Part shown: one piece after another, positions 12,296 to 54,218 of the stretch
Layout: every line of letters begins with the position of its first letter
Position numbering within the stretch: position 1 is the stretch's first letter
IMG/VR virus record: IMGVR_UViG_3300030098_004525
Coordinates: 1 to 54,218 of that record
Length of the DNA stretch: 54,218 nucleotides
DNA from: a virus
Direction: 5' to 3' (one strand)
Translations under genes and position numbers: made by a program
Notes under the pieces: generated by a model
Told to the model about the DNA's origin: nothing
What the model saw: the letters and a program-made list of their open reading frames with translations, nothing else
Database searches by the model: none

Positions 12296-13111
12296 ATGCC
12301 AACAGATGCCACCGACACCCCAGATGATGGAATCCAGTATGAGGATAATCCGTCTGACGGGATCGGCGCTTCGGCAAACGAGGTCGTCGGAAATGAAGAT
12401 AGTGAAGAGCAGGAAGAGGTAGATTATTCTGCCAACCCACTCGCATACTTAGAGACTAGGGACGATATTCCCGATGATGTCAAGGGTGCGCTGAGTAAGG
12501 GATTTCTGCGCCACTCTGACTACACAAGGAAAACCCAGGCAATCGCAGATGAGCGACGACGCCTGGATGATCAGCGGTCCGTTGTTGATCAAATCATCCT
12601 TGAGAGGTCAGAGGCTAAGAAGGCTAAAAAGGAAGAACAGGCACCCCCGCCAAACTTGGCTAAGGGGGCAAAGCCGGAAGATGTCATCCTTTACTACGTC
12701 AACAAGCAGGTTGAGGCTCGTCTCGCTGACATGGGTCTTAATGATAAGTTGACTAGCCTTGAGCCAATGGCGCAACAGCAGAAGGTCGTTAGCTCTTACC
12801 AGCGATTCGCCAAGGAAAATCCCACCCTTGATCATGCCAATATGGCAGCAGAGGTGGGGCGCATTCTCGACACTGATCCCGATCTATCTGACCTCGCTGA
12901 GGTCAACCCTGATCGTGCCGTAAGACTTGCAGCAAAGATGGTTCAGTCGAGCCGGAAGGTTGCGAAGAATACGGCCAAGTCTAAGAAGCGAAAAGAAGCT
13001 GCTCCTGTTGCCACTAGGCAGGGTTCTGTTGTGAGGAAGAGTAGGCGAGAAAGCCCGCTTGAAGCTGCAACCAGGGCTCTAAAGGAGCAAGGTGTAAACT
13101 TTGGCAACTAA
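12296..13111 (+). CDS. Capsid scaffolding protein
   Basis: A 271-aa acidic, helical protein immediately before the major capsid gene. The start is ATG 12296, 5 bases after GGAGAGG; the TTG one codon upstream is too close. An acidic, disordered N terminus is followed by DVKGALSKGFLRHSDYTRKTQ, a stretch recurrent in phage scaffold proteins, then a long coiled coil (IADERRRLDDQRSVVDQ), a helical core and a Lys/Arg-rich C terminus (KNTAKSKKRKEAA) suited to capsid binding. It guides prohead assembly and is then removed. Confidence 0.85.
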   Translation: MPTDATDTPDDGIQYEDNPSDGIGASANEVVGNEDSEEQEEVDYSANPLAYLETRDDIPDDVKGALSKGFLRHSDYTRKTQAIADERRRLDDQRSVVDQIILERSEAKKAKKEEQAPPPNLAKGAKPEDVILYYVNKQVEARLADMGLNDKLTSLEPMAQQQKVVSSYQRFAKENPTLDHANMAAEVGRILDTDPDLSDLAEVNPDRAVRLAAKMVQSSRKVAKNTAKSKKRKEAAPVATRQGSVVRKSRRESPLEAATRALKEQGVNFGN

Positions 13112-13121
13112 GGAATAACTA

Positions 13122-14243
13122 ATGCCTACTACTACAATTAACGGTCTTGCACTGGATCGAGTCTATTCGACTACGATGCATGTGCAGCGGGACACCGTTG
13201 CCATGGAAATCGTCCAGGCAAACCCGCTCCTCTGGCACTTTTACCGACAGGGTGCTGTTCAGTACCAGGGCGGAACTGAGTGTCGTCTCCCCGTGGTCCT
13301 TTCAGAGTCTCAGAATGTTGGTGCCATTGGCACGTATGCGACGTTCTCGACTACTCCTGAAGACGGCCCTGATACTGCTCGATACCCGACTTGGTACAAG
13401 AACCGCAGTTCGGTGGTTGTGGACAACACGGAGCTTTCTCAGAACCGTGGTCCCCAGCAGATTGTAAACCTGCTTCAGGCCAAGTTGGCAATCGCCAAGA
13501 TCAGCATGATCAACGACCTGAACCGACAGCTTTACGCTGACGGTGGTGCTGCAACTGGCACCGCAGGAGCCAACACGCTGGAGCTTAACGGCGTGGCCTC
13601 GATGGTCGAGCAGATTGCTGCCACCGCCGCAGGCCAGGGAACTACTGGTCAGCAAGGTGTCGGTGGAATTGACAAGCGAGCGGGAACGACTGCTGCGTCT
13701 AACTGGTGGAACCAGTTTGGACAAATCAGCGCCTTCGGAACCGATGGCTTGGATGTTTGGGAAGAGATTTACATGGACTGCTCGACCAAGGGCACCCATC
13801 CCGACATCATTCTTTGCGACCCCCGAGTCTATCGCTTCTTCAAGCGACTGGTTGCTCCCAATCAGGAAGAGCGTGACAAGGCTCTCTGGGACCAGGGCTT
13901 CCAGAACCTTCTGTTTGAAGGCACCCCCGTCGTTCCTGACGAGGAGCTTTCTTCAGGTGAGGCTTACTTCTTGACCACTACGGGCAAGCGAGCGGTTAAC
14001 GACTTCAACTTGAAGCCGGAATACTTCTCGGTCCCTGGCAAGAACCCGCTTGTAAAGGGTGCCGCTACTGGTATCGGGATGCAGCTTGCTATCCTGTCCA
14101 ACGACGACTTCCGAATGACGGATTTTATGACTCCGCCTAACTCGGATGTTATCATCGCGCACACCTACTTCACGGCCATGCTCACTACGTCAAGCCTAGC
14201 TCGACAGGGCGTTACTAACTTCTCTGGCACTGTCCAGTTTTAA
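13122..14243 (+). CDS. Major capsid protein
   Basis: A 373-aa protein with a good ribosome site (AAGGA) before ATG 13122, between the scaffold gene and decoration-like genes. The sequence reads like an HK97-fold capsid subunit: RDTVAMEIVQANPLLWHFYRQG at the start, a central WEEIYMDCSTKGTHPDIILCDPRVYRFFKR, and a C-terminal domain with AILSNDDFRMTDFMTPPNSDVIIAHTYF. A Gly/Ala-rich surface insertion lies near 140-190. The identity rests on position and fold-like pattern. It forms the icosahedral shell. Confidence 0.88.
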   Translation: MPTTTINGLALDRVYSTTMHVQRDTVAMEIVQANPLLWHFYRQGAVQYQGGTECRLPVVLSESQNVGAIGTYATFSTTPEDGPDTARYPTWYKNRSSVVVDNTELSQNRGPQQIVNLLQAKLAIAKISMINDLNRQLYADGGAATGTAGANTLELNGVASMVEQIAATAAGQGTTGQQGVGGIDKRAGTTAASNWWNQFGQISAFGTDGLDVWEEIYMDCSTKGTHPDIILCDPRVYRFFKRLVAPNQEERDKALWDQGFQNLLFEGTPVVPDEELSSGEAYFLTTTGKRAVNDFNLKPEYFSVPGKNPLVKGAATGIGMQLAILSNDDFRMTDFMTPPNSDVIIAHTYFTAMLTTSSLARQGVTNFSGTVQF

Positions 14244-24027: not shown

Positions 24028-26307
24028 ATGGCCTTATACCTTCCAAGAGGCGGCGACTACGAGCGTGCGCTTAGATATGTAAGTCAGGCGAACGGCATAG
24101 CTGGTGCTATGGAAGGTGCCTCGCAGGGGCTAGCCCTTGTGATGAACATTCAGAAGATTGCAGACAATGCTCTTAATATGGAGATGAAGCAGGAGCAGTT
24201 CGCTGAAAACAGGGCGAAGGCGGCGGCGGATCTTTACGGAAGGTTGGATTCCCTTCAGGGTGGGCTGTCTGATGTGGTTGGTGATGACGGCGAAGGGTCT
24301 GTAGCTACCGGCAGGGCTGGCAGAAGGGCCGGGGGCCGTGCCGGGGCGACAGGTGGTGGCGAAAGGGACAAGCTGTCTAAGGCCGAGGCGTCGCAACTTG
24401 CCGAGGTGTTTCACTCCCTGGCCCAATACGAGGGCTTGAAGGCTAAGGCTGGTCCACTGACGAGAAGAAAGGCCACTGTTGGCACTGGCGGAATTGAGTC
24501 GGACGAGATCGGGCAACTGGCGCAGGAGCCAGCGGCTGAAGAGGAGTTTATACCGGGAGACTGGCAACCTACGGATCGAGAGCTAGCCGGTCGGAGAAGG
24601 GGGAGCCTTTCGGAGGAGGAGTGGTCTGCTCTTATGGAAAGGCATGCTGCTAGGGAGGATATTCCAGACAAGGGCATGGGTCCCCTGGAGGGAGACGGTA
24701 AGAGCGAGGTTATCAGGGCTCTTGAGGCTATGGGATTAGAGCCCGGTAGTGAGCGTGCTAGGGCGCTCTCTGGACTGGTGACATCTGAAGATTCTCCAGC
24801 GGAGTTTGAGGGTGGAGAGCAGATCAGGGAGGATGCTTTGATGGCTGCTCTCGGGGAGATGGGTCTGGAGAGAGGCCCAGGCATTACGGCCACAGGAGCA
24901 GACTTTCAGGCCCCAGCGGCTATGACGGAGGCTCCGTCTGTGGGAGGCCCGCTTGGCGAAGGGTTGATCAATCCGGCAGCGTCGATGGGTTTTGATGGCA
25001 GTACGGTTCTTGAACCGGTTGCTCAGATGCACCTAGCGATGTTGCACGAGAGGGGCAGCAGGCTACCCACTACCATCTCGCAAATGCTTGGCGTCGATAG
25101 AGACAAGCTGCTTGCCCCAGGTGCGGTGGCTGAGACGGCCAAGTACAGGAGCGATTTGGGCAGGGCTCTGACTCGATTCATGGGCGACAAGGAGGAAGAG
25201 GATCGTTCGGCCCTTGAGAGGGCCACATTTGCTCGACTCAAGTCGGCAGGCATTAAGGGGTTCTCGATAGAAGAGCTAACCGATCTGTCTAAAGACTTGG
25301 CACAGTTGAGTGAAGACGAGCGGCAGAAGGCCATTGCCGACCTTAGAAGCGTTCCTGATCACCTCAGACAGTTAAGGCTGGCAGACATACGGCGCAGGAC
25401 TATCCGAGTTAACACCCCAGACCCATTTGCTGCGCTAAAGCTGATGGACAGGCATGCGAGTGGCATTCGATCAAAGATGGTGTCCGCGCTGTCTAACTAC
25501 AACAGGTTGAAGGGGGATATTGCGGAAGCCATACCGGACGAGGTTACAGAGGAGCGCAAGGAGGGGGTTCAAAAGGCGCTTGATGTCTACAACGAGCTAA
25601 AGGAGCAGTACGACTCAGCGAGCGCCGACAGGCAGATTCTTTGGGACCAGTATAAGGAGTCTATGGGCTTGGATAGTTCTCCGGTCTATGAGGAGCCACC
25701 GCCAGACGACGAAGAGGTCGTCGTAGTTGAGGTCAACTCGGAGATGGTGGAGAAGATGGTAGGCAGTTACAAAAAAAGGGGGTACACCAGAGATGCGGTG
25801 ATAGCGGCTATTGCTGAAACGAAGGGCGGTGGCTGGAAGTACGGCGAGGGTGTAGAGGCGGCAATACTGGCTGAGTTTCCAGAGGTTGCCTCTGAGCCGC
25901 TGAAGGAGGCGAGGGCTGAACTAGAAGAACTTGAGAAGAAGCCCGTTTCGGTGTCTCAATCCCCAGGTGCAAAGAGGGAAAGAAAAAAACGCGAAAGAAG
26001 GCGGCGCTCTTTGGAGAGAACGATAGGAGAGCATGAGCGCCACGGAAAAGAGCTTAGAAGGTTTACATCTGCCGTGGACCGCGCAGAGGAGGTGTTGGCG
26101 AACCTTGGTGAAGGTAGACCCGTGTCAAAAGACGAAATAAGGTCGGCGCAACAAGAGGCTTTAGGCGCTATGAGGGCGATGAAGGTGGAGTATCAACTGG
26201 AGCCGGGTGCCGGGGCTGCCTACGACCGAGCCACAGGAAGGCGGGTCGGGGATGACATTGAAGAGTTGGAGTCGCTGGTGGACCTGCTGGGGGAGGCTCT
26301 TAGGTAA
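24028..26307 (+). CDS. Large internal / ejection-like protein
   Basis: A 759-aa hydrophilic, helical protein with many Glu, Arg and Ala. The N terminus (YERALRYVSQANGIAGAMEGASQG) is like that of other internal core proteins; a Gly/Arg-rich patch lies near 92-110. A coiled-coil region with a very basic run (GAKRERKKRERRRRSL) lies near 645-665. No catalytic motif is recognised. Its stop overlaps the start of the giant gene, so the two are probably made together and co-assembled in the head. Confidence 0.65.
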   Translation: MALYLPRGGDYERALRYVSQANGIAGAMEGASQGLALVMNIQKIADNALNMEMKQEQFAENRAKAAADLYGRLDSLQGGLSDVVGDDGEGSVATGRAGRRAGGRAGATGGGERDKLSKAEASQLAEVFHSLAQYEGLKAKAGPLTRRKATVGTGGIESDEIGQLAQEPAAEEEFIPGDWQPTDRELAGRRRGSLSEEEWSALMERHAAREDIPDKGMGPLEGDGKSEVIRALEAMGLEPGSERARALSGLVTSEDSPAEFEGGEQIREDALMAALGEMGLERGPGITATGADFQAPAAMTEAPSVGGPLGEGLINPAASMGFDGSTVLEPVAQMHLAMLHERGSRLPTTISQMLGVDRDKLLAPGAVAETAKYRSDLGRALTRFMGDKEEEDRSALERATFARLKSAGIKGFSIEELTDLSKDLAQLSEDERQKAIADLRSVPDHLRQLRLADIRRRTIRVNTPDPFAALKLMDRHASGIRSKMVSALSNYNRLKGDIAEAIPDEVTEERKEGVQKALDVYNELKEQYDSASADRQILWDQYKESMGLDSSPVYEEPPPDDEEVVVVEVNSEMVEKMVGSYKKRGYTRDAVIAAIAETKGGGWKYGEGVEAAILAEFPEVASEPLKEARAELEELEKKPVSVSQSPGAKRERKKRERRRRSLERTIGEHERHGKELRRFTSAVDRAEEVLANLGEGRPVSKDEIRSAQQEALGAMRAMKVEYQLEPGAGAAYDRATGRRVGDDIEELESLVDLLGEALR

Positions 26308-29300
26308 TGGCTAACGGGCAGCAGGCAGGAGAACACGACTGGTTGTTTGACGAGTTCGGCGGAGGCCGTCTTGGGGCCACGCCACCAAAGGCCCCCACAG
26401 ACCTTCCCGGCGTGCCTGAGCCTGCTGACGCCCCCTTAAGGGCTATCGCCAAAAAGAAGCCAAGGAAGGCCAGCGAGCACGACTGGCTTTTTGAGGAGTT
26501 TGGTGGTGGAGATGGCCGCGAGGCGGAGGCGGCCATTCCCCCAGGCTACGACGAGCCTCCTAAGCCCATAGTCCCAAGAGAGGTTCGACGGGCGTCGCCC
26601 AGCAAGATTTCCTCTATGCAGGAAGAGGAGGCGTTGCAGTACCTGCCCGATACGTTGGACGAGAAGCCGACGCCAGAGTTGCTTGAAGACGTTGACTGGC
26701 AAAGAGATCCAGAGGCTTTTGAGTTGGCTCACAGGAAGATGGTCCGTGATTATGGACGGGCTAGGTCTAAGAGCGACAAGGCCGAGATCATGCGCGACTT
26801 CACAGCAGAGTGGAACCCAGAGCTTCTGCAAAGGGCTGAAGAGGAGAGCGGCGTCTTCATGGGCACCCTCACCGGGCTAGCTGCGGTGATTGAGTGGGTG
26901 GATAGCTGGTCGGGAAGGCCGATTCGCGCCACGTACAAGTCCCTTTGGGGGTCTAGGAAGAGGGATCTTGAGGGTGGCGGCGACTACAATCTGGAAGAGT
27001 TTGAGGGCGCAATAGCAGACAACTACAAAACCTCTGATGGAAGCTTTGACGACGGCGAGGACACCCTAAAGAGCGTTATAAAGTACGTAACTGCGGCAAC
27101 GGGAACGCCGCTCGGCTGGCTACACGCTGAGGCTAGCGGGCAGGACTTTACCGAAGAGAACTGGCTTAGTTCGGTAGACGAGAACATCGACAAGATGTTC
27201 GATTACGGTGCCGACGCCATTCAGTGGGCGACTTGGACAGGGCTCGGTGTTCTTGATCAGGCTCTTCCGTTTGTTGGTGACAACTACAAGGGATGGGCTG
27301 AGTCCAGGGACAAGAAGATTGAAGAGGGCTCATCTTTCGGGCACGGAGCGCTTGGCTTTGTTGGCTTGATTTTTAGCGACCCCCTCAGCTTCCTTAAGCT
27401 GCCAAGGGCCTTTCAAATAGCTGGGGCCAAAGTTACCGACTCGGCAAAGAACGTCATTGATGACGCCATTCATTACGAGACGGCGGCTCAGGCAAGGCTG
27501 ATCAGAAAGGCTGCGGAAAAGACGGGCAAGTTCAAGGACGAGGCTGGCGTGCTGGATGAGGACAGGATCCTTCAGGAGGCGAAGGACATTGCAACGGCCA
27601 GGACTAATCTGGCTGTCGTTGATGCAGCAGACGTAGGCTTTAGGCACGGAGTGGATGTTCACGGCTGGCAGTCGGTGGAGCTTCTGAGGCAGTGGCGCGA
27701 AGGGATTGAGCACACATCACCCGCCTACTGGAAGGCCAAGTTCCCAAGCATGGCTGACGATGTGGTCGATGAGATGGCGGGCGAGTTCGCTATGGACAAG
27801 GAGTCGGCGGCTGTTGTGAGTAATGTGCTCAAACAGCTTGGCGTTGATCTTCCGACAAACGCGACACCCACAGTCAGGGTGGAGGAGGCTTGGGCTGCTC
27901 TGAACAAGGAGGCCAACAGGCGAAAGCGTCTCTTTGACATTGAGGTGAAGCTAACCGGCGAGGTTGACCCAGACACGGGCGAGGAGATCGTCAAGTCAAT
28001 CATTCACTGGGTAGACCCAAGGAGGTCGCTGGACGTTAATGGGAACATGATGTTCCGCCTGACCAAGGCGGAAGATGTAAAGCCGCACCTTGCAACTAAG
28101 GTTGGAGGGGCTGTTGGAAAGGCCATAGGTGAGGCCCTGCCAAAGACTAAGGCAGCGGCAGACGCCGCCTACGGCAGGGCAATAGACGAGGCTTTCCCAG
28201 GTACTAAGGTAGCGGCAGACGATGCGGCTAGGGCAGCGGCAGATGTCGCCTACGGCAGGGCAAAGATTTACGCAAAGTCAGACAATCGCAGGGTTCGCTG
28301 GGGAATGGCAGCGATGAAGTCGTTCCCTGGACTAGAGGGGTTCCGCCTTACGGCAGAGTCGATCATCGCCCTTGAAAAGGCCCAGCCTTACTTCAAGAAG
28401 GTGGGCGATCATTACCAGCCAATGAAGGTCCACCATCAGGCTATGTGGCGGATGTTTGAGCGAGGGGAGCTACAGGATCAGGCTAGAAGGACGTTGGACA
28501 AGCAGAGGCTAGCCAACCACATAGCTAAGATCGAGTCGCTTACTGACACCACAACGCCAGAGGGTCAGGATGTCCTTAAGCTGGCAGTGGTCTACAAGGA
28601 GCTTGGCAAGCACATACCTGCAACAGAGGCCCAGATAGAGGCTTTTGCCTGGATGACAAAGGTGAAGCAGGGCTTGCAGAACATTGAAGACGGCATAACC
28701 GACGACCTCCCAATAGAGGCGGTTCGCCCGCTGCTTCAGTCTTTGAAGGAGGGTAAGGCTTCTGACCTCATGGGGTCGCTTGAGCGGGATCTGAGGAGGA
28801 TCCACGAGGCAATCGGTCCAGAGCGAAAGGAGCTTATCAAGGCGTTCAAGCTGCACCTGAACGAGACAAGCTCGGTTCTGAAGAAGGTTCTCACAGACGA
28901 CTTCAGGGTTCAGGCTGAGTTCCAGACCATGAAGGATGTGGCTGGAAAGGTGGAGCACGCAAAGCATCTTCGCCACATGAAGAGCGAGCTTGAAAAGCTA
29001 GCTACTGAAAAGGGTTTCAGCGACGAGGACGGGCTTGAGGCTCTTCTTGAGCAGCTTCGTGCGATCAGCAAAATGCAGGACGAGGGCATAGACGCCATCA
29101 GGGAAGAGGTTCCTGACATGGCTCGTACCGAAGCCGAGTTCTTGCAGAAGATGAGGACCAGGGGGCTGATCCCAGAGGGGTCGTGGACGGACTGGTCTGC
29201 TCACAAGGGTAACTTGCATGGTCGTGTCAGGAACGCGCTGAGGGCTACTGGCGTTGACGAGTGGGAGGCGCAGGCTGATGGGGTTATGGCAACCATGTCG

Positions 29301-32300
29301 GCAAGGGCGCAGGCTTGGGCTTCTTGGAACGGGTTGCCAGCGGATTACGCCGACTCTTGGTTCACCAAATACAGCAAGGATATAGAAGAGGAGGTTTTGG
29401 GCAGAGCCGTAGAGATCGCACCCATAAGTTCCGCAGCGAAGAGAATAGAAGAGACTCTTGAGGGCGTGGAGGGCAAGCGCGTTCTTGAGGAGATGCGTAA
29501 GTCTGCCGTTACGCCAGAGATGGGCGAGGCGTATGCGCGTCTAGCAGCTTCTCGCGCCAACGCATGGGCTGTTGCCAACGACAGGCCAGCAGAAGAGTTC
29601 CTGGCTAGGCTGCACATACGCACGGCTAAGGACACTGACGAGGTGTTCGGAAAGCTAATCTACGAAATAGATCCAGACCTGAAGCCTGTCGAGATCATAG
29701 GCGGAACTGGAAAGCTGTCCGACCCGGCAAAAGAGGGTGGCCTTCCGTGGCAGTGGCAGGTAGCAACGCCAAATGAGCTAGACGACTTTATGGACCTGCT
29801 TGGGGGCAAGTACAGAGAAGACTATGTAAAGAAGGTAGCTGCTTCTAAACGTTCAAAGGACTACGAAAGAAAGTTTGCGGCATACGAAGAGCTGGAAAAG
29901 AGCGATAAGGCGTACAACGCTGCGTGGGACGCATACTACAAACAAAAGGAGGCGTTTGATGACAAAGTTGCATTAGGAGTGCCCTGGAGCCCAGAGCGGG
30001 TAAGAGCGGCGGCTAAGTCGGGTTCCAAGTTGCTGGATATGTCTGGGGCACACGCATACAACAAGACCGTTGATCGTTGGCAGGATATGCTGCGGTTCTA
30101 CGTCAGGACCGAAAGCGACGGAACGCTTAGGCTAGCTCTTGCGCCGAGAAAATACGCCAACCTAGACGCAGATGAGCTAATAGCAGGGTCTAAAGAGTGG
30201 ATAGCTAAGGCGGAGCTACATACGTTCAAAGATCCAGTGGGGAAAACTAAAGCCTGGAGGAGGGAGGAGGAGAAGGCGATAGCTCTTTATAAAGAGAAAA
30301 AGAGGCTGCACGAGGCTTGGGGGAGAGAGCGTGTCAGGATCTACAATTCCATTTTCCGCCCCGAAAAGCTGGAGACTACAAACGGATTCATAGTCTTTGG
30401 CGAGCAAGAGAAAGCAGCAATCTTCCTTCTTGAGTCGGCTAGGCCAGGAACATTGGGCCATGAGTTGGGCCACTTCTTCCGCAGGGATCTTCCGCAAGAA
30501 CTTCAAGATCGCGCCGCAGCATGGGCTGAGAGGGCTTCTGGCATAGGCAAGGTTGGTGACAAGTGGTCTATAGGTATGGAGGAAGCTTTTGCCGAAGCTT
30601 TTGAGCTTTATCTAAAGACTGGTGTGGCTCCAGCGGCCAGCGGAATGGCCGGGATCTTCGCTAAGTTCAAGGAGTGGATTAAGCAGATCATGACCCCCCT
30701 GATTCAGTCAGGGAAGCTCAAGAGGGTAGACGACGAGATACGGCAAGTCTTCGATGAGATGTTCGATTCCGGCGCTGTCAGGGGAGGCAGCGGAGATGCT
30801 GGGGCCGCAGCGGCGAGAGAGTCCAGGGAGATCGTCTCTGCGTTCCAGTCCCAGACGTTCCAGGGGATGATCAAGGGCGCTGGCCGAGTCTTTGCTAAGG
30901 ATCTGCCATCAAAGGACTACGACATAGCTTCGGACTGGATTAGGCGAGAGCTAGGCGACGCGGGCTTCCGAAAGAACGGAGATTGGTCGGAAGCAGGCTT
31001 GTCGGCTTGGGGGCAGGCGTTTGCCAACTGGACAAAGAGCGGCAGGGTTTCCAACCACGGGTTGCGAGAGGTGTTCGCCAAGTTCAAGGACTGGATCTTC
31101 AAGATGTACCGGGCGGTGTCTGGTCAGAAGGAGTACAAGTTCAAGATCAGCCCAGAGGTCGAGGACATCTTTGACAGGATCCTGACCAAGGACGGGTACT
31201 ACCAAGTACACCCAATGGCGCTGGACTTCGACGTTGCTTACCAGAACTACATCAAGAGCTACGGAGGCAACATCTCCGTACTGGGCAAGGCGATTCTTAA
31301 TGAGTCTCTAGAGTCCATGATGAAGGCGGCTAAGTATTCGCCAGACAAGATACGGTGGGTTCACGACAAGCTGTTTTCCGGCGACAAGATGGAAAGCATA
31401 GAGGCCCTGAAGTTCATCAAGGAAGAGGTGTCAGACAGGCTGGCGGCTAGGTTTAACCCACCGAAAGAGGGGTTCTCGATCAAGGCTCCTGGCTTTAAGA
31501 ACAACAAGACCTCTTTCAAGTCAGCAGTTGCCGACGCTCTTCAGGAGCACGCTGGCATGACAGGCGAAGAAGCCAGGGAGGTTTTGAGCCTCGCTGAGTA
31601 TGACGACATCGTTAAGTCAGCTATCCCGCAAGGCAGGTTTACCTACGACAAGGGCAGGACCAACTTCCAGAACATTGTTCTGGCGTTTGCAAAGAGGTTT
31701 GTGGCCCTGAATCCAGACAAGGCACCCGCCTACCCGCGAATGGGATACAAGATCCCCGGTCGAGCCGATGTTGATGCGGTGAACAACCTTGAAAAGACCA
31801 GAGCCGCGTGGAAGGGGAGAAGGCCATCAAAGAGTCTCGGCGGTGGGCTCGATTTTGACTACGAAAAGACGCAGGTCCGTTACTACAAGGCCGCCCTACA
31901 GGTTCTAAAGATGGCTGGCAGGCCAGACGCTGAGGCTCTAGCGGGTCGAATCATAGGATCCAATGTCAAGCACAGCGAGATGCTTGAGCTTGATGACGCC
32001 CTGAAGTCGGCTTCGGAAAGACTGAAGACACCAAGGTCAGAGCGCAGGGCGGAAGTAGAGAAGAAGATTAGGGTCTATGACACCGCGATTGGTGGGCTCA
32101 AGAAGCAGCTTAAGGACGCTGAAGAAGAGCTAGCTGGCATCAGGGCAGGCAAGCCCGCAGTCGCAAAGGAGGTTGCTGAGGAGGCTGAAGCGGAGTTCAA
32201 GCGCTGGTTCGGTGATTCTGATGTCGCAGAGGAGGCTGTGGGGAGGGCTCCCATCAAGCCGCTGAAAAGGGACGAGCACCGAATCCCAGTGACCCAAGAT

Positions 32301-35300
32301 GAGTGGAACAAGCTGCCAAAGGAGGAGCGCTTCGCCAAGGTTTCAAACGTATATGTGGAGGCAGAGGGTGGTTTGGTCAAGCTGACTAGGCCGCAGCTTG
32401 AGAAAGTGGCCGAAGGAGAAGACTGGATTGATGTCGGTAGGATGCTGGTGAAGACAGCCAAGGTAAGCGACAACAAGTGGAAGAACCTTCCTGCTGGCGT
32501 TTACGCCGACGAGTCTGGGCGGCTGGGTTCTGAGAAGGTTGGCGTCGAAGTCGTCGGCATGGACGACTTCGACATTGGTGTGGCTAAGGCGTTTCTTAAA
32601 AACCACCTCTACCGAAGGCCCACCCACGCCGCACCCAAGCCCTCAAGAGAGGCACCTGACCTAGTTAAAAAGGGCGCTGTCTATTACCCAAGAACCGAGA
32701 CGGGGATGATAGACGAGTCGGTTGCTCCAATACACAAGGCAAGCATAGGCGGCGAAGATAGGTATTTAACTTGGATTGAAATAGAGGGTTTAGGGAAAAA
32801 TTGGCTAGAGTACGGAGAAGAGCTTCCTGAGTTTGGAACGGGTGTTTACACAAAGAAGGAGTTGGTTGCGAAGCTGGAGAAGGAGGCGGCATCCGCACCC
32901 AAGCCCGCAGCCGCGCCCAAGCCAGTAGACATTCCAGACGACATATCTAGGCAGGCTGCGAGATACCAGCAAACAAGAAACATAGACCCCCACGACGACC
33001 TAGTTAGTGACTTTGCTTATCTATCCCCAGACAAGCCAGCGATTGTTGTTAAAAGGATTAAGAGGGTCGTTGAGGACAAGCTCAAGCGTGACCACGGAAT
33101 CAGCGAGGGTGCTGCAAAGAGGCTGATTAAGGACGAGGGGAGCGATTGGTCGGCAAGCTCCAGGGGCGACAAGGCATCCAGCGTGGCTAGAAATGTTCTT
33201 CGGGATCCTGTTAAGTGGATTTCGGAGCGCGTCGAGGAGCTTAGAAGGGCGGCTAGGCCAGACGACTATCTTTTCAACGTCAAGGCAGTAGAGGACTTCA
33301 TACAGGGCCGAGGCGGCGTGCTTCCCGATGTGGCAAACGCAGCGGTCAAGGCGCGAGGATTGATAGACGAGACGGGCGAAAAGATACGGGACCTCCAAGA
33401 GAAGAGAGCCGCCCTTGTGGAAGAGCTAAACGCACTGGACATCACTCCAGAGCAGGCTTCCATCGCTGAGGCGGGAGAGGTGTCAGCAAAAAGAAACCCG
33501 GTTTCAGAAGAAGCCAGGGACAGAGCCAAGGCGAAGACCAGTTGGCTTGAGGAGGAGATAGCCAAGCTTGACGCAGAGATTCAAGAGGAGTTTAGGGCTG
33601 CTCGATCTAGCGCCGACAACATGGCTCAAGCTGCGTTTGAAAAGGAGATGGAGCCCCTTGCTAGGTACGAAATTACCGAGAAGGGGAGGAAGCGCCGGGT
33701 TCTCGTGGGACGGGGCGAGGAGCAGGTTTCTGGGGCGATAGAGGACATCGAGAGGCGCATCGCTGAGGGCTTGACCAGGGGTCAGCCTGGGAAGCGAAAG
33801 GGTCCGATGGATATGCCTTCCATTGTGCCGAAGCGCCTTACGGAAAGCATGAAGAAGAAGATCGAGGCTCTTCCTGGGGCGAAGGAGGAGATGCTCGACA
33901 TAGCTAGGAAGCTAAAGTGGGACACCACGAACCCAGGCGAAATCTGGGAGAACATCGTCAACTACAAAAAGTATGCAAGATCATACGGCGACGCAGCAGA
34001 GGCGAATAGGGAGCTAGCTAGGCAGGCGATTTACGACTGGGAGCGGTTGCGAGAGTACAGCCGACTTCCAGAGGCAGAGAAGACTGTCATCATCAACCTC
34101 CTAAAAGACCCTCGCAAGTACAGCATTCCCCCAGGTGCCAGCAAGAAGGTTCGGGAAATGGGCGAAAGCCTGGGCATGTCGAGCCGTGGCAGGGAGGATG
34201 TCTTCATTCACTTGTCAGGCAAGCACATAACCAAGAGGTACGGCCTGGGTCCAGATGCTGGAAAGGTTAAGCGTGTACGCGCAGGCGATCACTTTACTGA
34301 CGAGGAGATGGAGCAGGCCCTCGCCATAGCCAAGGTTATGGAGGAGTTCCTAGAAGAGAAGCTGGTCAAGCTACAGAGGCACGGTCGCTTGGCCCAGTTT
34401 AGGGACAAGGCGGTGGGCGCACAGATAGACCTCATCAGGCGCAAGATTGCGGGCAAGGAGGAGCTAGCAGAGGGAGAAACCCGCGAGGGTCTGGAGGAGG
34501 CTCTTGAGGGGCTTAGGGAGAAGGAGTTCAGAGCGTGGACGAAGGAGGAGTTCCTCCGTCGTGTGAACGTAGCCAGCTATATCCCGCACATGATGCGAAT
34601 TGCAGCACGGCGCAAGATTGACGGAATGAAGGGCAAGAACCTTCTGCCAGCAAACTATGTGACCGGCTTTGAGAGGATGCGAACCAGGGCCAGCATCCTA
34701 GACGACATCAACGAGCAGGCTAGGAACGAGCTTGCCGAGGACATGCTGTACCACGATGTGACTAGCCTCATGTCTAACGGACCCAGGTTTCAAAGCGTGT
34801 TTGAGGGCAGGTCGCCGGAAGAGTTGGCCGCGATATATGACGCAGCTAACTCCCTGAAGCTGAGAGAGCACTTCGCCCCAGAAGAGTGGGACGCCTTGCT
34901 GAAGAGGAAGAGAGCCCAGGCCGACCTAGATGGTGTGTATGAGTTCTTTGAGACTGACTACTTCACCCTCATTAAGAGGTACAGCGAGTCTATTGATCGA
35001 AGCATTGCTGATCAGGTCTTTATCGAAGACATCCTTGAGATGTTCCCCATCGGCAAGGAGATGGGTCGGGACTCCCGCTTTGTTAACAACCCAGACCTAG
35101 CAAGGGAGTTCGGCTACGTCAGGCTTGGCAAGCGTGATCAGGTTGAGGCTATCGGCAGAATGAAGCTGCCGGATGAGATGACTGGCGACATAGAGGTGTT
35201 CGTAAACCAGCAACTTCAGGATGGGGCGACCATCCCAGAGGTTATGGCTGCTCTGCGTCGAAAGGGAGTCAACGTATCTCGCAATGTTGTCGAGCTTTAT

Positions 35301-37229
35301 GGTCGCATGCCAGAGGTGTTTGTCCCAGAGCCGGTCGCGGAGTACCTGAAGTGGATGCGAACCCCAGAGGTTCACAAGGGCGCGTGGGGTGCGGCGGTTC
35401 AGCTTGCTGACGGCCTCCACGCACTCGCCAAGACGATGACCACAGTGGCTAGCCTTGCCCATATTGGCATGAACTTCTCAGGAAACTACGCATCAATAGC
35501 TCAGAAGGTTGGCACTGATCTCTTCAACCCAAGGCACCACATGAACATGTGGACCGTGATGTTGAGCGACACGTTCCCAGAGCTAGAGAAGAAGATGATC
35601 ACGGTGGGTGCTCGTCGCCAAACCGTGGGTGAGTTGAAGCGTGAAATGGCAATCAACGGCATTGACGAGTCGCCTCGCTCTCTTGCCTTCCTTGAGGAGG
35701 CGCTAGGCAGGACCGAGGGTTCAGCAGCCAAGACGCCGCTTGCCCCCATGCTTCTGGGCTCTGGCATGGGCGCTACTGGTGGTTGGATTGCAGGCTCTGC
35801 CATAGCTGGTCCGTTGGGCGGTGCGGCTGGAGGCTTCCTTGGTTCGTGGGCTGGTGCCCTTGGAGGGGAGATTCTGGGCAAGAGTTGGCGTGCTGGGATC
35901 GATCCAAAGACAGGAAGGGCTGTGACAGGGCCGATCAGTTCAGGCGAGCTAGACGTTGGGCGTGGTGTTAGGAGCTATGCAAAGACCGAGGTCGGCAAGT
36001 TTGTAGAGGCTATTGCAGACGCCAAGAAGGGCAGGCTCAAGGAGGGCGTTCAGAGGGTTGGCGAGTTGGCAGTTGGCTCTGGCACCAGCGCCGTCATTGG
36101 ATCGGCTATGGGTGGTCCAGCCGCAGCGGTGGCTATGGCTATCGGAGGGCTGACCTTCCCCTCGTACATCAGGATGATGTCAGCCCTGAACCAAAGCGTG
36201 GAGATCCAGGCCAGACGCCTGCTTGCGTTGGCAGAGATGTCTCGTGGCAAGTCTATGGATGAGGTCGCGTTCAGCGTCCAAGACACCATGCGGAACTACT
36301 CCCACCTGACACCCTTTGAGAGGAATAAGCTTCGCAGGCTGTTCTTCTTCTACACCTGGGATGCAGGCAACGTCAGGTTCCAGCTTCGGCAGATGGTAGA
36401 CAACCCAAGGCAGGCGGTCATATTCCAGCAGTTTATGAACGGCGTTTACAACGGCCAGTTCACCGAGAGCGAGATCCAGTCGCTGCCAGAGTATCTTCGC
36501 TGGAAGGCGGTCGTTAGGGTTGGAGGCGCAAAGATATACGGATTCAGCGGCTTGCCGCAGCAGGCGGCTATCGAGCTAAGTCGTGGGTTTGGAACTCATG
36601 GCGGCAAGCCGATTGGCCTGTTCAGCCGGGGTCGTCCAGACGCAATGCTTTTGGTTGAGTGGCTTATGGGTAAAGAGTCGCTGTATTACGGCAAGGGCTG
36701 GAACGAGCTAACCAACGTGAGGCAGATGAAGAATGCGCCACCGGCACTGAAGGCGTGGGTGGGCTATCCAAGCAGGCCAGTCAGGGTGCCCGTTTACAAA
36801 AACGGAAGGGTTGTTGGCACAAGAGAAGACTTTAGGGCGAACAACCCAGACCGCTTTTACATAGCAAGCAGGCTTCCTGGCTGGCGAGTAATGATGGAGT
36901 ACATGAAGCTAGTTCAGGACACCTTCATATCGAGGGCTCTGGACTATGGCGACCCATCTGCCAAGGCCACTATGGAGGAGAGGATGCTTGCGTTCAGCGT
37001 AGGCACAAAGCCTTACTTTGTGGACTTTGAAAGTCAGAAGGAGTACATGGCCCACATGCTTGATCGCGCCCTTCAGGAAGAATGGGACCGCATCAACAAG
37101 AACTTCATGATCCAACAGAACTTCCTTAACAGGAACTGGGACTACAGACGGGGACACCTTTTGTACCCAGGAGATACCGTGGACTCAGAGCCAGCCGACC
37201 AGTATAGTCAGGACACAGAGGCCGAATAA
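26307..37229 (+). CDS. Giant 3640-aa polyvalent virion protein with metallopeptidase site
   Basis: One uninterrupted frame of about 10.9 kb. Seen in order: two copies of EHDWLF(D/E)EFGGG at residues 9-20 and 57-68; long helical regions; a zinc-peptidase motif HELGH at 1385-1389 with a downstream Glu-rich helix (MEEAFAEAFELYLKTG near 1424); a degenerate second copy of that downstream region near 1559-1640 without HExxH; FKRWFGDS near 1964-1971, a motif that precedes ADP-ribosyltransferase domains in polyvalent proteins, here without a visible catalytic part; YIPH near 2760; two Gly/Ala hydrophobic stretches near 3147-3190 and 3252-3295; and near 3330 a segment (NYSHLTPFERNKLRRLFFFYTWD) like the C-terminal LPD38-type domain. 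Polyvalent proteins are delivered with phage DNA; a role in envelope passage or host takeover is inferred. Confidence 0.85.
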   Translation: MANGQQAGEHDWLFDEFGGGRLGATPPKAPTDLPGVPEPADAPLRAIAKKKPRKASEHDWLFEEFGGGDGREAEAAIPPGYDEPPKPIVPREVRRASPSKISSMQEEEALQYLPDTLDEKPTPELLEDVDWQRDPEAFELAHRKMVRDYGRARSKSDKAEIMRDFTAEWNPELLQRAEEESGVFMGTLTGLAAVIEWVDSWSGRPIRATYKSLWGSRKRDLEGGGDYNLEEFEGAIADNYKTSDGSFDDGEDTLKSVIKYVTAATGTPLGWLHAEASGQDFTEENWLSSVDENIDKMFDYGADAIQWATWTGLGVLDQALPFVGDNYKGWAESRDKKIEEGSSFGHGALGFVGLIFSDPLSFLKLPRAFQIAGAKVTDSAKNVIDDAIHYETAAQARLIRKAAEKTGKFKDEAGVLDEDRILQEAKDIATARTNLAVVDAADVGFRHGVDVHGWQSVELLRQWREGIEHTSPAYWKAKFPSMADDVVDEMAGEFAMDKESAAVVSNVLKQLGVDLPTNATPTVRVEEAWAALNKEANRRKRLFDIEVKLTGEVDPDTGEEIVKSIIHWVDPRRSLDVNGNMMFRLTKAEDVKPHLATKVGGAVGKAIGEALPKTKAAADAAYGRAIDEAFPGTKVAADDAARAAADVAYGRAKIYAKSDNRRVRWGMAAMKSFPGLEGFRLTAESIIALEKAQPYFKKVGDHYQPMKVHHQAMWRMFERGELQDQARRTLDKQRLANHIAKIESLTDTTTPEGQDVLKLAVVYKELGKHIPATEAQIEAFAWMTKVKQGLQNIEDGITDDLPIEAVRPLLQSLKEGKASDLMGSLERDLRRIHEAIGPERKELIKAFKLHLNETSSVLKKVLTDDFRVQAEFQTMKDVAGKVEHAKHLRHMKSELEKLATEKGFSDEDGLEALLEQLRAISKMQDEGIDAIREEVPDMARTEAEFLQKMRTRGLIPEGSWTDWSAHKGNLHGRVRNALRATGVDEWEAQADGVMATMSARAQAWASWNGLPADYADSWFTKYSKDIEEEVLGRAVEIAPISSAAKRIEETLEGVEGKRVLEEMRKSAVTPEMGEAYARLAASRANAWAVANDRPAEEFLARLHIRTAKDTDEVFGKLIYEIDPDLKPVEIIGGTGKLSDPAKEGGLPWQWQVATPNELDDFMDLLGGKYREDYVKKVAASKRSKDYERKFAAYEELEKSDKAYNAAWDAYYKQKEAFDDKVALGVPWSPERVRAAAKSGSKLLDMSGAHAYNKTVDRWQDMLRFYVRTESDGTLRLALAPRKYANLDADELIAGSKEWIAKAELHTFKDPVGKTKAWRREEEKAIALYKEKKRLHEAWGRERVRIYNSIFRPEKLETTNGFIVFGEQEKAAIFLLESARPGTLGHELGHFFRRDLPQELQDRAAAWAERASGIGKVGDKWSIGMEEAFAEAFELYLKTGVAPAASGMAGIFAKFKEWIKQIMTPLIQSGKLKRVDDEIRQVFDEMFDSGAVRGGSGDAGAAAARESREIVSAFQSQTFQGMIKGAGRVFAKDLPSKDYDIASDWIRRELGDAGFRKNGDWSEAGLSAWGQAFANWTKSGRVSNHGLREVFAKFKDWIFKMYRAVSGQKEYKFKISPEVEDIFDRILTKDGYYQVHPMALDFDVAYQNYIKSYGGNISVLGKAILNESLESMMKAAKYSPDKIRWVHDKLFSGDKMESIEALKFIKEEVSDRLAARFNPPKEGFSIKAPGFKNNKTSFKSAVADALQEHAGMTGEEAREVLSLAEYDDIVKSAIPQGRFTYDKGRTNFQNIVLAFAKRFVALNPDKAPAYPRMGYKIPGRADVDAVNNLEKTRAAWKGRRPSKSLGGGLDFDYEKTQVRYYKAALQVLKMAGRPDAEALAGRIIGSNVKHSEMLELDDALKSASERLKTPRSERRAEVEKKIRVYDTAIGGLKKQLKDAEEELAGIRAGKPAVAKEVAEEAEAEFKRWFGDSDVAEEAVGRAPIKPLKRDEHRIPVTQDEWNKLPKEERFAKVSNVYVEAEGGLVKLTRPQLEKVAEGEDWIDVGRMLVKTAKVSDNKWKNLPAGVYADESGRLGSEKVGVEVVGMDDFDIGVAKAFLKNHLYRRPTHAAPKPSREAPDLVKKGAVYYPRTETGMIDESVAPIHKASIGGEDRYLTWIEIEGLGKNWLEYGEELPEFGTGVYTKKELVAKLEKEAASAPKPAAAPKPVDIPDDISRQAARYQQTRNIDPHDDLVSDFAYLSPDKPAIVVKRIKRVVEDKLKRDHGISEGAAKRLIKDEGSDWSASSRGDKASSVARNVLRDPVKWISERVEELRRAARPDDYLFNVKAVEDFIQGRGGVLPDVANAAVKARGLIDETGEKIRDLQEKRAALVEELNALDITPEQASIAEAGEVSAKRNPVSEEARDRAKAKTSWLEEEIAKLDAEIQEEFRAARSSADNMAQAAFEKEMEPLARYEITEKGRKRRVLVGRGEEQVSGAIEDIERRIAEGLTRGQPGKRKGPMDMPSIVPKRLTESMKKKIEALPGAKEEMLDIARKLKWDTTNPGEIWENIVNYKKYARSYGDAAEANRELARQAIYDWERLREYSRLPEAEKTVIINLLKDPRKYSIPPGASKKVREMGESLGMSSRGREDVFIHLSGKHITKRYGLGPDAGKVKRVRAGDHFTDEEMEQALAIAKVMEEFLEEKLVKLQRHGRLAQFRDKAVGAQIDLIRRKIAGKEELAEGETREGLEEALEGLREKEFRAWTKEEFLRRVNVASYIPHMMRIAARRKIDGMKGKNLLPANYVTGFERMRTRASILDDINEQARNELAEDMLYHDVTSLMSNGPRFQSVFEGRSPEELAAIYDAANSLKLREHFAPEEWDALLKRKRAQADLDGVYEFFETDYFTLIKRYSESIDRSIADQVFIEDILEMFPIGKEMGRDSRFVNNPDLAREFGYVRLGKRDQVEAIGRMKLPDEMTGDIEVFVNQQLQDGATIPEVMAALRRKGVNVSRNVVELYGRMPEVFVPEPVAEYLKWMRTPEVHKGAWGAAVQLADGLHALAKTMTTVASLAHIGMNFSGNYASIAQKVGTDLFNPRHHMNMWTVMLSDTFPELEKKMITVGARRQTVGELKREMAINGIDESPRSLAFLEEALGRTEGSAAKTPLAPMLLGSGMGATGGWIAGSAIAGPLGGAAGGFLGSWAGALGGEILGKSWRAGIDPKTGRAVTGPISSGELDVGRGVRSYAKTEVGKFVEAIADAKKGRLKEGVQRVGELAVGSGTSAVIGSAMGGPAAAVAMAIGGLTFPSYIRMMSALNQSVEIQARRLLALAEMSRGKSMDEVAFSVQDTMRNYSHLTPFERNKLRRLFFFYTWDAGNVRFQLRQMVDNPRQAVIFQQFMNGVYNGQFTESEIQSLPEYLRWKAVVRVGGAKIYGFSGLPQQAAIELSRGFGTHGGKPIGLFSRGRPDAMLLVEWLMGKESLYYGKGWNELTNVRQMKNAPPALKAWVGYPSRPVRVPVYKNGRVVGTREDFRANNPDRFYIASRLPGWRVMMEYMKLVQDTFISRALDYGDPSAKATMEERMLAFSVGTKPYFVDFESQKEYMAHMLDRALQEEWDRINKNFMIQQNFLNRNWDYRRGHLLYPGDTVDSEPADQYSQDTEAE

Positions 37230-50959: not shown

Positions 50960-51181
50960 ATGATGAAAGGTACAGAGACACCAGTTAGCTCATTACCTAA
51001 CTGTGACATTCCAGAGTGTAGCCGTAGAGCATATGCAGATGCAGCTATTCCAGCTTATGGATCTTCATGGGGATATGTCTGCAAAGGACACTTCCACACC
51101 CTGGGCTGCAAGCTTGGCCTTGGTAAGGGCCAGAAGCTTGTTGTTACCAACCCACCCTTTGAAAGCCTGGAGCAAGGGTGA
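50960..51181 (+). CDS. 73-aa Cys/His small protein
   Basis: First gene of the second rightward unit (GGGAGA upstream; ATG 50960 or 50963). NCDIPECSRRAYADAAIPAYGSSWGYVCKGHF has three Cys and one His that could form a zinc site, a pattern seen in small actinobacterial and phage proteins. Its stop overlaps the next GTG (GTGA). Confidence 0.72.
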   Translation: MMKGTETPVSSLPNCDIPECSRRAYADAAIPAYGSSWGYVCKGHFHTLGCKLGLGKGQKLVVTNPPFESLEQG

Positions 51182-51426: not shown

Positions 51427-52353
51427 GTGAACTTTTCACTACTAACACAGGAGCTTACTAACAAGCTGATGGGTGTTGGCTACATGCCTAGACGTTCCGA
51501 CGTTTTGGCACTAGCCGGTGCCCTTACAGCACCAACTGGTGCAGGACTTCGTGCTGTACTGCTAGAGGGGCCACCGGGAACAGGCAAGTCTGCTTTTGCA
51601 GAGGCTGTATCTGAGGTGATCAAGGGTGATGGACACCAAGTTGAGTTCGTAGTCTACCAGTGCCATAGCTGGTCAGATGCAGATGAACTGTTCGTTGGTG
51701 TCGATGTTTCTGCTGCCGTAGCTGGCGAGTCAGGCTCTGTTCGTCAGGATGGTGTGCTGGCTAAGGTAGCCAGAGCATCGGAGCGGGGCATGGTTGTGCT
51801 GTTGCTCGATGAGATCGACAAGACAATGCAGCGTACAGAGGCTCTGTTGCTGGACTGGTTGCAGTCTGGTCGTGTTCCTTTGCGACCCGGTGTGCAGATC
51901 AAGACAACGATGGACAACGTGCTTTGCTTTATCACCAGCAATGCACACCGTGAACTGTCTGATGCTCTTATGCGTCGAGTTCGCAGAGTAATGATGCAGC
52001 CCTTGCCGATAGCGCAGCAGGAAACGCTGCTGATTCGTCGTACTAGTCTGCCTCCTGGCTTTGTCAGAGTGCTGTGGAAGCTGGCAAGAGAGATTGCAGT
52101 GCATGAGGGTAACGAGGCACTGAGTCTTCAAGAGGGTGTCAGAGCGTTGCATGAGACTTTTGAGTTTGCCACCGACACTGGCGACATAGCACTAACCCTT
52201 CAAGGTTGGGCTGCCCGCAGCAACAAGGGTCGTGAATACGTAAGAAGCAATGTTGTTGGTAGCAGGAATCTATCTGCTGCTTGGTCAGAGTTGAGACGGG
52301 CTCGGCAGCGGGCTCGACAGCAGATGGAAAAGGAGTTGAGCAATGTCGGTTGA
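51427..52353 (+). CDS. MoxR/CobS-like AAA+ ATPase
   Basis: A 308-aa protein from GTG 51427 (AGAGG eight bases upstream). Walker A GPPGTGKS at 48-55, Walker B VVLLLDEID at 123-131, sensor-1 CFITSN near 167 and an arginine-rich DALMRRVRR near 180. Insert and helical lid place it with MoxR/CobS-type AAA_5 ATPases, which form rings and work with VWA-domain partners to remodel proteins or insert metal. A VWA-like gene follows two genes later. No cobalamin pathway gene is nearby, so a chelatase role is not implied. Confidence 0.88.
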   Translation: MNFSLLTQELTNKLMGVGYMPRRSDVLALAGALTAPTGAGLRAVLLEGPPGTGKSAFAEAVSEVIKGDGHQVEFVVYQCHSWSDADELFVGVDVSAAVAGESGSVRQDGVLAKVARASERGMVVLLLDEIDKTMQRTEALLLDWLQSGRVPLRPGVQIKTTMDNVLCFITSNAHRELSDALMRRVRRVMMQPLPIAQQETLLIRRTSLPPGFVRVLWKLAREIAVHEGNEALSLQEGVRALHETFEFATDTGDIALTLQGWAARSNKGREYVRSNVVGSRNLSAAWSELRRARQRARQQMEKELSNVG

Positions 52354-52852
52354 GAAGTTGTTGGAGAAGATTTCCTCGGGGCAGCTAAGTCCTGAAGAGG
52401 GAAGGGTGCTTATTGAGGCTATTGCTCAGATGGGCAAGATGCTTGATCTGGCAGAGCGCACCGCTGAGGCAATCAGGGCGGGTGCTTACGCCACTAACCG
52501 TGACGACCCTGGCTACTTGACCAAGGAGCAGGTTGTTATCAACCCGCCAGCCTTTGAGCAGATCGACCAGTCTGCTCGCAGCTTCTACATGGAGCATGTA
52601 GCTGAGGGTGATGTTTCATGGGTAGTGGATCGTATGACGTTTGAGTTCATTTCTTTGCCAGACGGCAGGCTGCGGGTGGTTTACCCAATGCTTGGTGGCG
52701 ACGGTGATTTGGACTTAGAAGCTGAGGTGGCACCCATTCACTGGGTAGGCGACATGGTTGCTGGATATGTAAATGCAGAGGACTGGTTTCCCGTAACGGT
52801 TATGGGGGACATGGCCGTGCTAACCGTCGCCCCTGGCGGCATAGACGAATAG
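52343..52852 (+). CDS. 169-aa protein between AAA+ and VWA-like genes
   Basis: AAGGAG seven bases before ATG 52343, overlapping the ATPase gene by 11 bases. A helical N terminus (LEKISSGQLSPEEGRVLIEAIAQMGKML) is followed by a beta-rich acidic domain (MTFEFISLPDGRLRVVYPMLGG; DWFPVTVMGDMAVLTVAPGG). Not recognised. Tight linkage suggests it is an accessory or substrate adaptor of the ATPase. Confidence 0.7.
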   Translation: MSVEKLLEKISSGQLSPEEGRVLIEAIAQMGKMLDLAERTAEAIRAGAYATNRDDPGYLTKEQVVINPPAFEQIDQSARSFYMEHVAEGDVSWVVDRMTFEFISLPDGRLRVVYPMLGGDGDLDLEAEVAPIHWVGDMVAGYVNAEDWFPVTVMGDMAVLTVAPGGIDE

Positions 52853-52864
52853 GAGACTAGGGAT

Positions 52865-54218
52865 ATGGGCAGCAGGAACAACAAGAGCTTTACTCTGCGA
52901 GACATTCGCAGGCTAGTTAGCAAGGCAGAGAAGCAAGGCGAGGGAATACATTTCCTTTCTCGGGCTATCTATGCCCACTACAAAGGCGACAAGGACATCC
53001 TGCTGCCCCACCTCTACAGCAGCACAGACGAGTACAAAGTATGGCGAGCAAAGAATCGAGGAGATAACAAGCGAGTTAGGCAATACAAAGCAAAGCTCGA
53101 CAACATGATCAGAGAGCATGGAGCCGACAAGGTGTTGTATTTGGACACCAACGACGAAGGCGAAGTGCAGTCTGCAAATTGGTCCTTTGAGGACCAGAAA
53201 GGAGAGAGTGTATGCGAGACAACTAAGGGAGGTCGGAAGGGACCTTCCGCTGCTCAGGGTAGCAGTGCGCCCACCAACACCAGTCTGACTAGCTTGCTCA
53301 AAGCTATGGGTAAGTCAGTGACGAAGGCTCGCAAGGAAGCTGGAGGAAACGGCAGTCAGGATCCACTTGCCGATCAGTTGGTCAATGGGGCACCGTCTAC
53401 TTCTGCTGCTCGCAAGAGTAGTGGTAGAGGACAAGCAGCGGGAGGCGATAAGCAATCAAGGAGTTTTCGGGAGCAAGCCCTCAGCGCAGAGGCAAAGCTA
53501 ACTGGGAACGCAAGATTGCTTGAGTCACCTCAACTCAAGACTGCCAAGACAGGCAGCAAAGGCGACAAGCAGGGTGTCGGCACCTCTGCGGCTACTTCGT
53601 TCCGGGGCACCGGGCGGCCTTTGCCTTCTCTCGGAAGTGGTCTGAAAACTAAGATGCCTAATGGATGTAGTACCGGGGATGTAGCCTCACCCGGTAATCA
53701 TCTCCCCCCTAGTCCCACCACCTATACGAACGGCAGTCCTCTAGGGGACATGGCCGATGGTGACTGGCACTGGGGGGGAGGCTACTCCTCTTTTGGTGCG
53801 GTAAACGCATATAAGGGGAGAAGCTATTACAACCCACACGGCAAGAGCTTATCTATGGGGTCCTTTGGATCCTTAGCCAGCGGCTTTGGCAAGAGCAGCA
53901 AGGCAATAAGTAGCTCGGCTGAGTGGACGGCAGAGACGGGCAGCATTTCTGTAGAGGATGCTTGGCGCAAGGATAATCCTGGCGGGATGGTCAATGCAGT
54001 AGAGGCTAGCTCAATGAGCAAGCGTCTAAAGAAGCAGGCAGCATCTATCCAGGCAAGCATGGAAGCCTGCTTGGTTGCTATGGACATTGGTGCAGGGCTT
54101 GACCCTTCGCCACGTAGGTCAGGCAAGAAGCTGGTCAAAGAGCTAGTTGGTAGCAGCTACAGGATGGCACGCTGCCAGAAGGAAGAGCTACAGACTGGAC
54201 TGAAGCTGATACTGGTGG
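52865..54218 (+). CDS. Long CobT/VWA-like partner protein (truncated by window end)
   Basis: A frame open from ATG 52865 to the last base, at least 451 codons. The N-terminal 100 residues are helical and basic (LRDIRRLVSKAEKQGEGIHFLSRAIYAHYKGDKD). About 110-340 is low-complexity, Ser/Gly/Lys-rich and probably disordered. From about 380 it resembles the region preceding a VWA domain in CobT-type proteins (MSKRLKKQAASIQ; GAGLDPSPRRSGKKLVKELVG; LQTGLKLILV), where a DxSxS metal site would come just past the window end. Inferred partner of the AAA+ ATPase. Confidence 0.7.
   Translation, partial: MGSRNNKSFTLRDIRRLVSKAEKQGEGIHFLSRAIYAHYKGDKDILLPHLYSSTDEYKVWRAKNRGDNKRVRQYKAKLDNMIREHGADKVLYLDTNDEGEVQSANWSFEDQKGESVCETTKGGRKGPSAAQGSSAPTNTSLTSLLKAMGKSVTKARKEAGGNGSQDPLADQLVNGAPSTSAARKSSGRGQAAGGDKQSRSFREQALSAEAKLTGNARLLESPQLKTAKTGSKGDKQGVGTSAATSFRGTGRPLPSLGSGLKTKMPNGCSTGDVASPGNHLPPSPTTYTNGSPLGDMADGDWHWGGGYSSFGAVNAYKGRSYYNPHGKSLSMGSFGSLASGFGKSSKAISSSAEWTAETGSISVEDAWRKDNPGGMVNAVEASSMSKRLKKQAASIQASMEACLVAMDIGAGLDPSPRRSGKKLVKELVGSSYRMARCQKEELQTGLKLILV

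Follow-up and report, generated by a model that had tools for sequence, protein, structure and literature searches.

What does a phage do with a MoxR-type AAA+ ATPase that is followed by a long protein resembling the run-up to a VWA domain? MoxR-VWA pairs are common in phages, yet a client is known for ATV tail development alone, and many of the pairs are labeled cobaltochelatase or "HNH endonuclease." The locus considered here closes a 54,218-nt stretch of a virus record (IMG/VR IMGVR_UViG_3300030098_004525), referred to below as the window. The initial annotation described an ATPase, an unrecognized 169-aa protein, and a VWA candidate that together would form an unusual chaperone-like machine, perhaps for virion maturation. 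Our analysis suggests that the locus probably encodes a MoxR-VWA machine of a mobile-element branch, which would use ATP to remodel a protein complex inside the cell.

The three open reading frames (ORFs) are present as that annotation gave them (Table 1), and the third is still open where the window ends. Because each is preceded by a purine-rich, RBS-like stretch, the ATPase and 169-aa ORFs share 11 nt, and only 12 nt separate the 169-aa and VWA ORFs, the three look like one operon. The window stops where it does because a scaffold gap interrupts the third gene: the full record has 55,133 nt, with 10 Ns at record positions 54219 to 54228, and the VWA gene resumes beyond them to reach a stop at record position 54693. 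A single codon base, a G such as begins the Asp codons, precedes the gap and reading restarts at codon position 1, so that the true gap length is 2 modulo 3 and not 10; since a run of 10 Ns throws the frame off, standard ORF calling cuts the gene in two. Two nearer relatives, G017 and G046, start at about window positions 1117 and 1513 and fall short of the gap. The 73-aa gene upstream of the module has a counterpart at the same place in relative L009/L099.

Table 1. Features of the ATPase-VWA locus (window positions, or residues of the ATPase where stated)
Feature	Position	Strand	Basis
73-aa cysteine-containing gene, upstream syntenic neighbor	50960..51181	+	phrog_23287, 3.5e-8
MoxR-clade AAA+ ATPase, 308 aa, GTG start	51427..52353	+	AAA_5, motifs
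Walker A GPPGTGKS	ATPase residues 48-55
Walker B VVLLLDEIDK	ATPase residues 123-132
Sensor-1 TSN (sensor-1 N kept)	ATPase residues 170-172
Two invariant arginines	ATPase residues 183-184
169-aa probable accessory gene, between ATPase and VWA gene	52343..52852	+	ORF; SHOCT-like sub-threshold match
VWA partner, visible part	52865..54218	+	ORF; runs over 10-N gap to record 54693
Final window base G, predicted codon start of the MIDAS Asp (DxSxS)	54218	+	alignment

The ATPase is as intact as was first proposed. It matches Pfam AAA_5 at 2.6e-14 (53.8 bits; cut-off, 22), and its Walker A and Walker B motifs, sensor-1 N, and both arginines are conserved across 12 relatives; judging from these motifs, it is a MoxR-clade AAA+ protein with an intact core. 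An insert in helix 2 defines the MoxR clade (PMC7159879), and a conserved segment, DELFVGVxVxAAVAG...GVLA, stands where this insert would be expected, its position being judged by sequence alone. The nearest PDB relatives of the ATPase profile are the midasin AAA modules (1.2e-21). In NCBIfam the top match is MadB_ATPase, at 44 to 55 bits against a cut-off of 475, a family on which our literature search found no paper. No LARA domain was matched in the 308-aa protein up to an E value of 1, and bpMoxR reached 19.1 bits, under its cut-off of 27.

The partner protein opens with a TLRDxRR domain (about residues 1 to 95), followed by a low-complexity linker of some 230 residues (about 100 to 330) that is rich in Gly, Ser, and Ala and 17% hydrophobic, in agreement with the disordered middle noted at the outset. 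The visible start of the VWA domain reaches strand 1 (LKLILV). Before the gap the protein ends in GLKLILV; after it the frame reads CSEIRDACYAAALAIADLDKDAVVVCHFNG...GVIAFGDGDAASLYALL..., the remaining half of a VWA domain. In alignment, the flanks GLKLILV and CSEIRDACYAAALAIAD correspond to GLKLILV-DISPS-CAAIRDACYAAALAIAD in a relative, and the 14 nt needed for a DxSxS motif fit exactly into the frames on either side of the gap. This metal site, which the initial annotation had proposed to seek in the continuation, stands at the gap position in each of the 17 intact relatives whose DNA can be read there (16 in the alignment and one later), followed by C or M; among the five nearest relatives the sequence is DISPSC in four and DNSGSC in one. 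The window record's own DxSxS would fall within the Ns and is predicted from the relatives and the reading frame, while the second metal-site Asp (GDGDA, after strand 4) is readable in the record.

The fold of this domain was modeled with AlphaFold2 on its equivalent in a relative (L101; 47% identical to the window VWA protein over the shared part), using a 15-row alignment. The model shows strand-helix alternation at a pLDDT of 76. In a Foldseek search its top PDB match was NorQD chain 9qhe_G (E = 7.9e-4), Rpn10 came next, and the VWA domain of CMG2 ranked fifth; upon realignment, the MIDAS domains of Rea1 and MDN1 were near the top with Z scores of about 6, which are not decisive alone. A VWA (Rossmannoid) fold is predicted for the partner on the strength of this relative, not of the window's own interrupted gene. 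The initial annotation had allowed for a continuation without a VWA fold; what follows the gap is the second half of such a domain, and the L101 model has the fold. At the level of sequence families the partner is divergent: a PDB sequence search with the VWA profile gave no match, and the relatives' VWA proteins reach no Pfam cut-off, the best being PF05762 at 18.7 bits in one relative. A linker motif, HGG[DN]xxSGE, occurs in 11 of 16 relatives (L012, L013, L014, L015, L017, L110, L111, L112, and L007 among them), in many cases some 25 residues past a GTDEVA-like stretch, and is absent from the window's own clade. It looks like a functional short motif, because the remainder of the disordered linker is unalignable.

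The 169-aa protein, which had been counted as a part of the machine, is probably a variable accessory and not a core component, because its slot is mostly empty or filled by unrelated genes. Most relatives with a readable ATPase-VWA junction have no gene in between. Genes are found there in the window, L009, L010, and L111, where the product is 308 aa long; no similarity was detectable among these genes, nor in direct comparisons of the 169-aa gene with the other three, and that of L009 resembles a gene upstream of the ATPase in L101 and L102 (hhalign, 64 to 77%). A single-sequence scan of viral contigs with the 169-aa protein found no relative. Its N-terminal hairpin is weakly SHOCT-like (18.6 bits; cut-off, 27) and is the only confident part of a structure prediction made without relatives (pLDDT 44). 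In-between genes also occur elsewhere (163 aa in Litunavirus, 62 aa in HVTV-1), and MoxR/VWA pairs are frequent in phages (PMC8651126, PMC7911831, PMC4124505), so the arrangement is less unusual than first thought. Small downstream genes, by comparison, are common to members of a branch, even between phage and plasmid, as seen for L112 and a Gloeobacter plasmid (41%, E = 7e-30) and for L016 and a Thermovibrio plasmid (42%, 8e-10).

Viral contigs scanned with single sequences (the ATPase and both VWA halves) gave no match, and phage records yielded nothing for the ATPase at 1e-5 and weak generic AAA matches alone up to an E value of 5. A CRP-603 match of the post-gap half (E = 3) was rejected as chance; it sits in a tail gene region. 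Plasmid relatives of the ATPase were found in Gloeobacter (38.6%) and Thermovibrio (30.6%), and profile scans seeded through them added at least 17 loci on viral contigs, with identities of up to 55%; these scans used short conserved peptides, and the relatives are mostly fragments from few lineages. Among the matches listed for bacterial and archaeal genomes, two small MAG contigs were close (L019, on a 3.6-kb contig, and L020, whose contig also carries a YqaJ-like gene), and the others, at 1e-13 or weaker, were generic MoxR proteins. When placed in one tree with 22 generic MoxR proteins, the 20 members of the family, which span tailed phages, the two plasmids, and the two MAG contigs, formed one clade with support of 100/100; a CRP-7 row had a very long branch, and no use was made of its placement. 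The clade is a distinct and unstudied MoxR-VWA branch, probably specific to mobile elements.

The ATPase and the VWA partner are a conserved gene pair. The VWA gene lies 3' of the ATPase gene in every relative with an intact ATPase and enough DNA, at odds with the possibility, raised at the outset, of an ATPase that always stands alone. The L104 and L019 contigs end inside the VWA gene with its TLRD start visible, and those of L114 and L020 do not extend far enough to show it. In a broken copy (L018, 381 to 797) the ATPase frame breaks off past the sensor-1 region; a methylase-like gene comes next, and no VWA gene follows. The pair sits in unrelated phages, since terminases differ among its carriers: a terminase is clearly shared with the window phage in L010 and L101 only (62 to 73%), and on the contigs of other carriers the terminase is a different one or none was found. 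No terminase match was obtained for either plasmid; that of Thermovibrio carries conjugation, Rad52-type, and ssb genes, and the Gloeobacter copy adjoins genes annotated as methyltransferase and Cas3. Among 31 further terminase relatives, the VWA gene was found in G026 alone and the ATPase in none, counts that are uninformative on absence because most of these are short contigs around the terminase.

Within the window phage, the module lies outside the structural gene block, between a RecT/PD-(D/E)XK block (44.1 to 46.7 kb) and a DnaB-type primase-helicase (2.4 to 4.4 kb). Single contigs of two relatives (L099 and G026) join the module to the replication genes found at the start of the record, in the order obtained by joining the two ends of the window record. 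A recT gene is present in the records of 7 of 16 relatives, about 3 to 9 kb from the module in all 7, and YqaJ lies within about 2 to 5 kb of the pair in 4 relatives. Such closeness gives weak hints of a link with replication or recombination; it is not a statistical result, because the lineages are few and early genes cluster anyway, and it may reflect merely where phages store their early genes.

Several features elsewhere in the genome merit mention in their own right. A DNA methyltransferase gene (5069 to 5632, plus strand; phrog_111, 1.2e-46) has a counterpart in L099 that is on the opposite strand and close to the module. The portal protein gene (10250 to 12259; phrog_1216, 9e-21) is on the minus strand between plus-strand terminase (7683 to 9602) and scaffold/major head genes (12293 to 14243), an unusual inversion within the head block. 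A single late-region ORF of 3,640 aa (26307 to 37229, plus strand) takes up about 20% of the genome and has no PHROG match at 0.01. Two near relatives with terminases 93 to 95% identical (L168, 4857 to 7106, and L169, 2365 to 4614) possess an additional gene (749 aa, opposite strand) that the window lacks (about 5700 to 5882); it is inserted just past the position of a tRNA-Met gene (5623 to 5699).

A working model can be drawn from the better-known families, in which MoxR proteins form an ATPase ring and the VWA protein presents a client for ATP-driven reshaping (PMC7159879, PMC4124505). By analogy, the window ATPase would assemble into a ring, on which the VWA partner would dock, possibly by way of the TLRDxRR domain at the partner's N terminus. 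An acidic residue of the client may then be gripped by the metal site (DxSxS together with the GDxD Asp) of the VWA domain on its tether, and ATP hydrolysis would pull on or reshape the client, as in midasin, NorQ-NorD, and RavA-ViaA. A distinct branch carried by unrelated phages and plasmids therefore probably does an intracellular job that is useful to mobile DNA. With less certainty, the client may be an intracellular protein complex important to phages and plasmids alike, the best candidates being a DNA replication or recombination complex or a host protein that is displaced at an early stage of infection.

Virion maturation, named in the initial annotation, has a viral precedent, since the ATV proteins p618 and p892 are a MoxR-VWA pair with virion clients (PMC4124505); in this role the pair would remodel tail or capsid proteins, and the window phage does have a very long late-region gene without assignment. 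We nevertheless regard a virion component as a less likely client, and virion maturation as an improbable function, because plasmids without a terminase match carry the pair and because the module lies among early genes, outside the structural block and adjoining replication genes; the pair also occurs in phages whose terminases are not shared with the window phage. More doubtful still is a phage cobaltochelatase that would boost host cobalamin synthesis together with host CobN, as put forward for the cobST pairs of tailed viruses (PMC8651126). The overall layout is alike, with an AAA+ protein and a protein with a C-terminal VWA domain, but the CobS equivalog (TIGR01650) scores only 18.7 bits in a relative (L010) against a cut-off of 558.55 and is not among the best 25 families listed for the window ATPase. 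Scanning the intact VWA proteins of the relatives against Pfam and NCBIfam gave no CobT model, no cobalamin gene was found, and the large proteins scanned included no ribonucleotide reductase or CobN-like match. The initial comparison with bacterial chaperone-like pairs thus stands as regards a MoxR-VWA pair with a likely remodeling role and fails as regards CobS/CobT identity.

The pair might instead serve counter-defense, conflict between elements, or host takeover, by disassembling a host defense or transcription complex with the branch-specific small genes as client adaptors. Predicted conflict systems are built around MoxR-vWA pairs (PMC7159879), the pair occurs on both phages and plasmids, small neighbor genes are shared within branches, and the methyltransferase and Cas3 annotations beside the Gloeobacter copy fit such a role. 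However, no third component of the kinds defining those systems was found (no VMAP, iSTAND, FtsH, or beta-propeller protein in the neighboring genes scanned), and PADLOC models gave weak AAA matches alone and none for the VWA proteins, so that we consider this reading rather unlikely, if the least so of the three. Intracellular remodeling for the benefit of mobile DNA remains the probable function. A more specific version, which we offer tentatively and think unlikely as it stands, is that unrelated phages and plasmids share an undescribed machine that remodels a RecT/Rad52-type recombination or replication complex through its disordered, motif-bearing linker, with branch-specific small subunits as adaptors. 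The terminase-less plasmid carriers separate the function of the pair from virion building and allow its client to be tested without any phage.

Phage MoxR-VWA pairs are already known from N4-like phages, haloviruses, ATV, and "cobST" phages, and the present locus is a divergent branch of them, because tests for CobS, DUF2201, LARA, and ternary systems fail and the VWA proteins stay under Pfam cut-offs. In haloviruses AAA and vWA genes are reported as neighbors, and "cobST" pairs are reported for tailed viruses whose hosts belong to eight orders (PMC8651126); like the window pair, the "cobST" pairs and CobS/CobT combine an AAA+ protein with a second protein bearing a C-terminal VWA domain. The MoxR-vWA ternary conflict systems resemble the window in having extra genes linked to the core (PMC7159879). 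RavA-ViaA differs by the LARA domain C-terminal to its AAA+ module, for which the window ATPase has no match. Also alike in layout are N4-like phages (Schitoviridae) and CRP-7: a MoxR ATPase gene is followed by a VWA protein gene, 764 of 50,697 phage records match the MoxR protein of CRP-7, and Litunavirus has a 163-aa gene in between, comparable to the window's 169-aa gene. Their VWA partner carries a metallopeptidase-like DUF2201_N domain, whereas the window partner does not; DUF2201 had no match in the window record or the relatives' VWA proteins, with N4-like controls positive. The window-family and N4-like profiles are distantly related (90.7% probability for the ATPase, 3.3% for the VWA protein). 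In all three N4-like relatives examined, the DUF2201 VWA protein is annotated as an HNH endonuclease (L130, 3396 to 4652; L131, 4017 to 5246; L132, 3479 to 4603). These genes encode metallopeptidase-like DUF2201 plus VWA (Pfam, 1e-30 to 5e-57), and the label is an apparent misannotation. In ATV, too, a virus encodes the MoxR and VWA proteins, and these interact, as proposed for the window: p618 ranks among the main components of the virion, and p892 binds to p618, whose ATPase activity it stimulates (PMC4124505). ATV is an archaeal spindle virus whose client is an extracellular tail, and the likeness to the window pair is one of description.

The PDB comparisons lead to two cellular machines. 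NorQ-NorD, solved as 9qhe and 9qhd and the best Foldseek match, is like the window pair a MoxR AAA+ protein with a VWA partner. NorQD matures nitric oxide reductase in bacteria; the window partner differs by its long low-complexity linker, and a nitric oxide reductase-type client gene was not found. Midasin (Rea1/MDN1), the best PDB match of the ATPase profile, has an AAA ring from which a MIDAS domain extends by way of a long, disordered linker. It is a single eukaryotic chain that remodels pre-60S ribosomes, whereas the window family consists of two separate small proteins carried by mobile elements.
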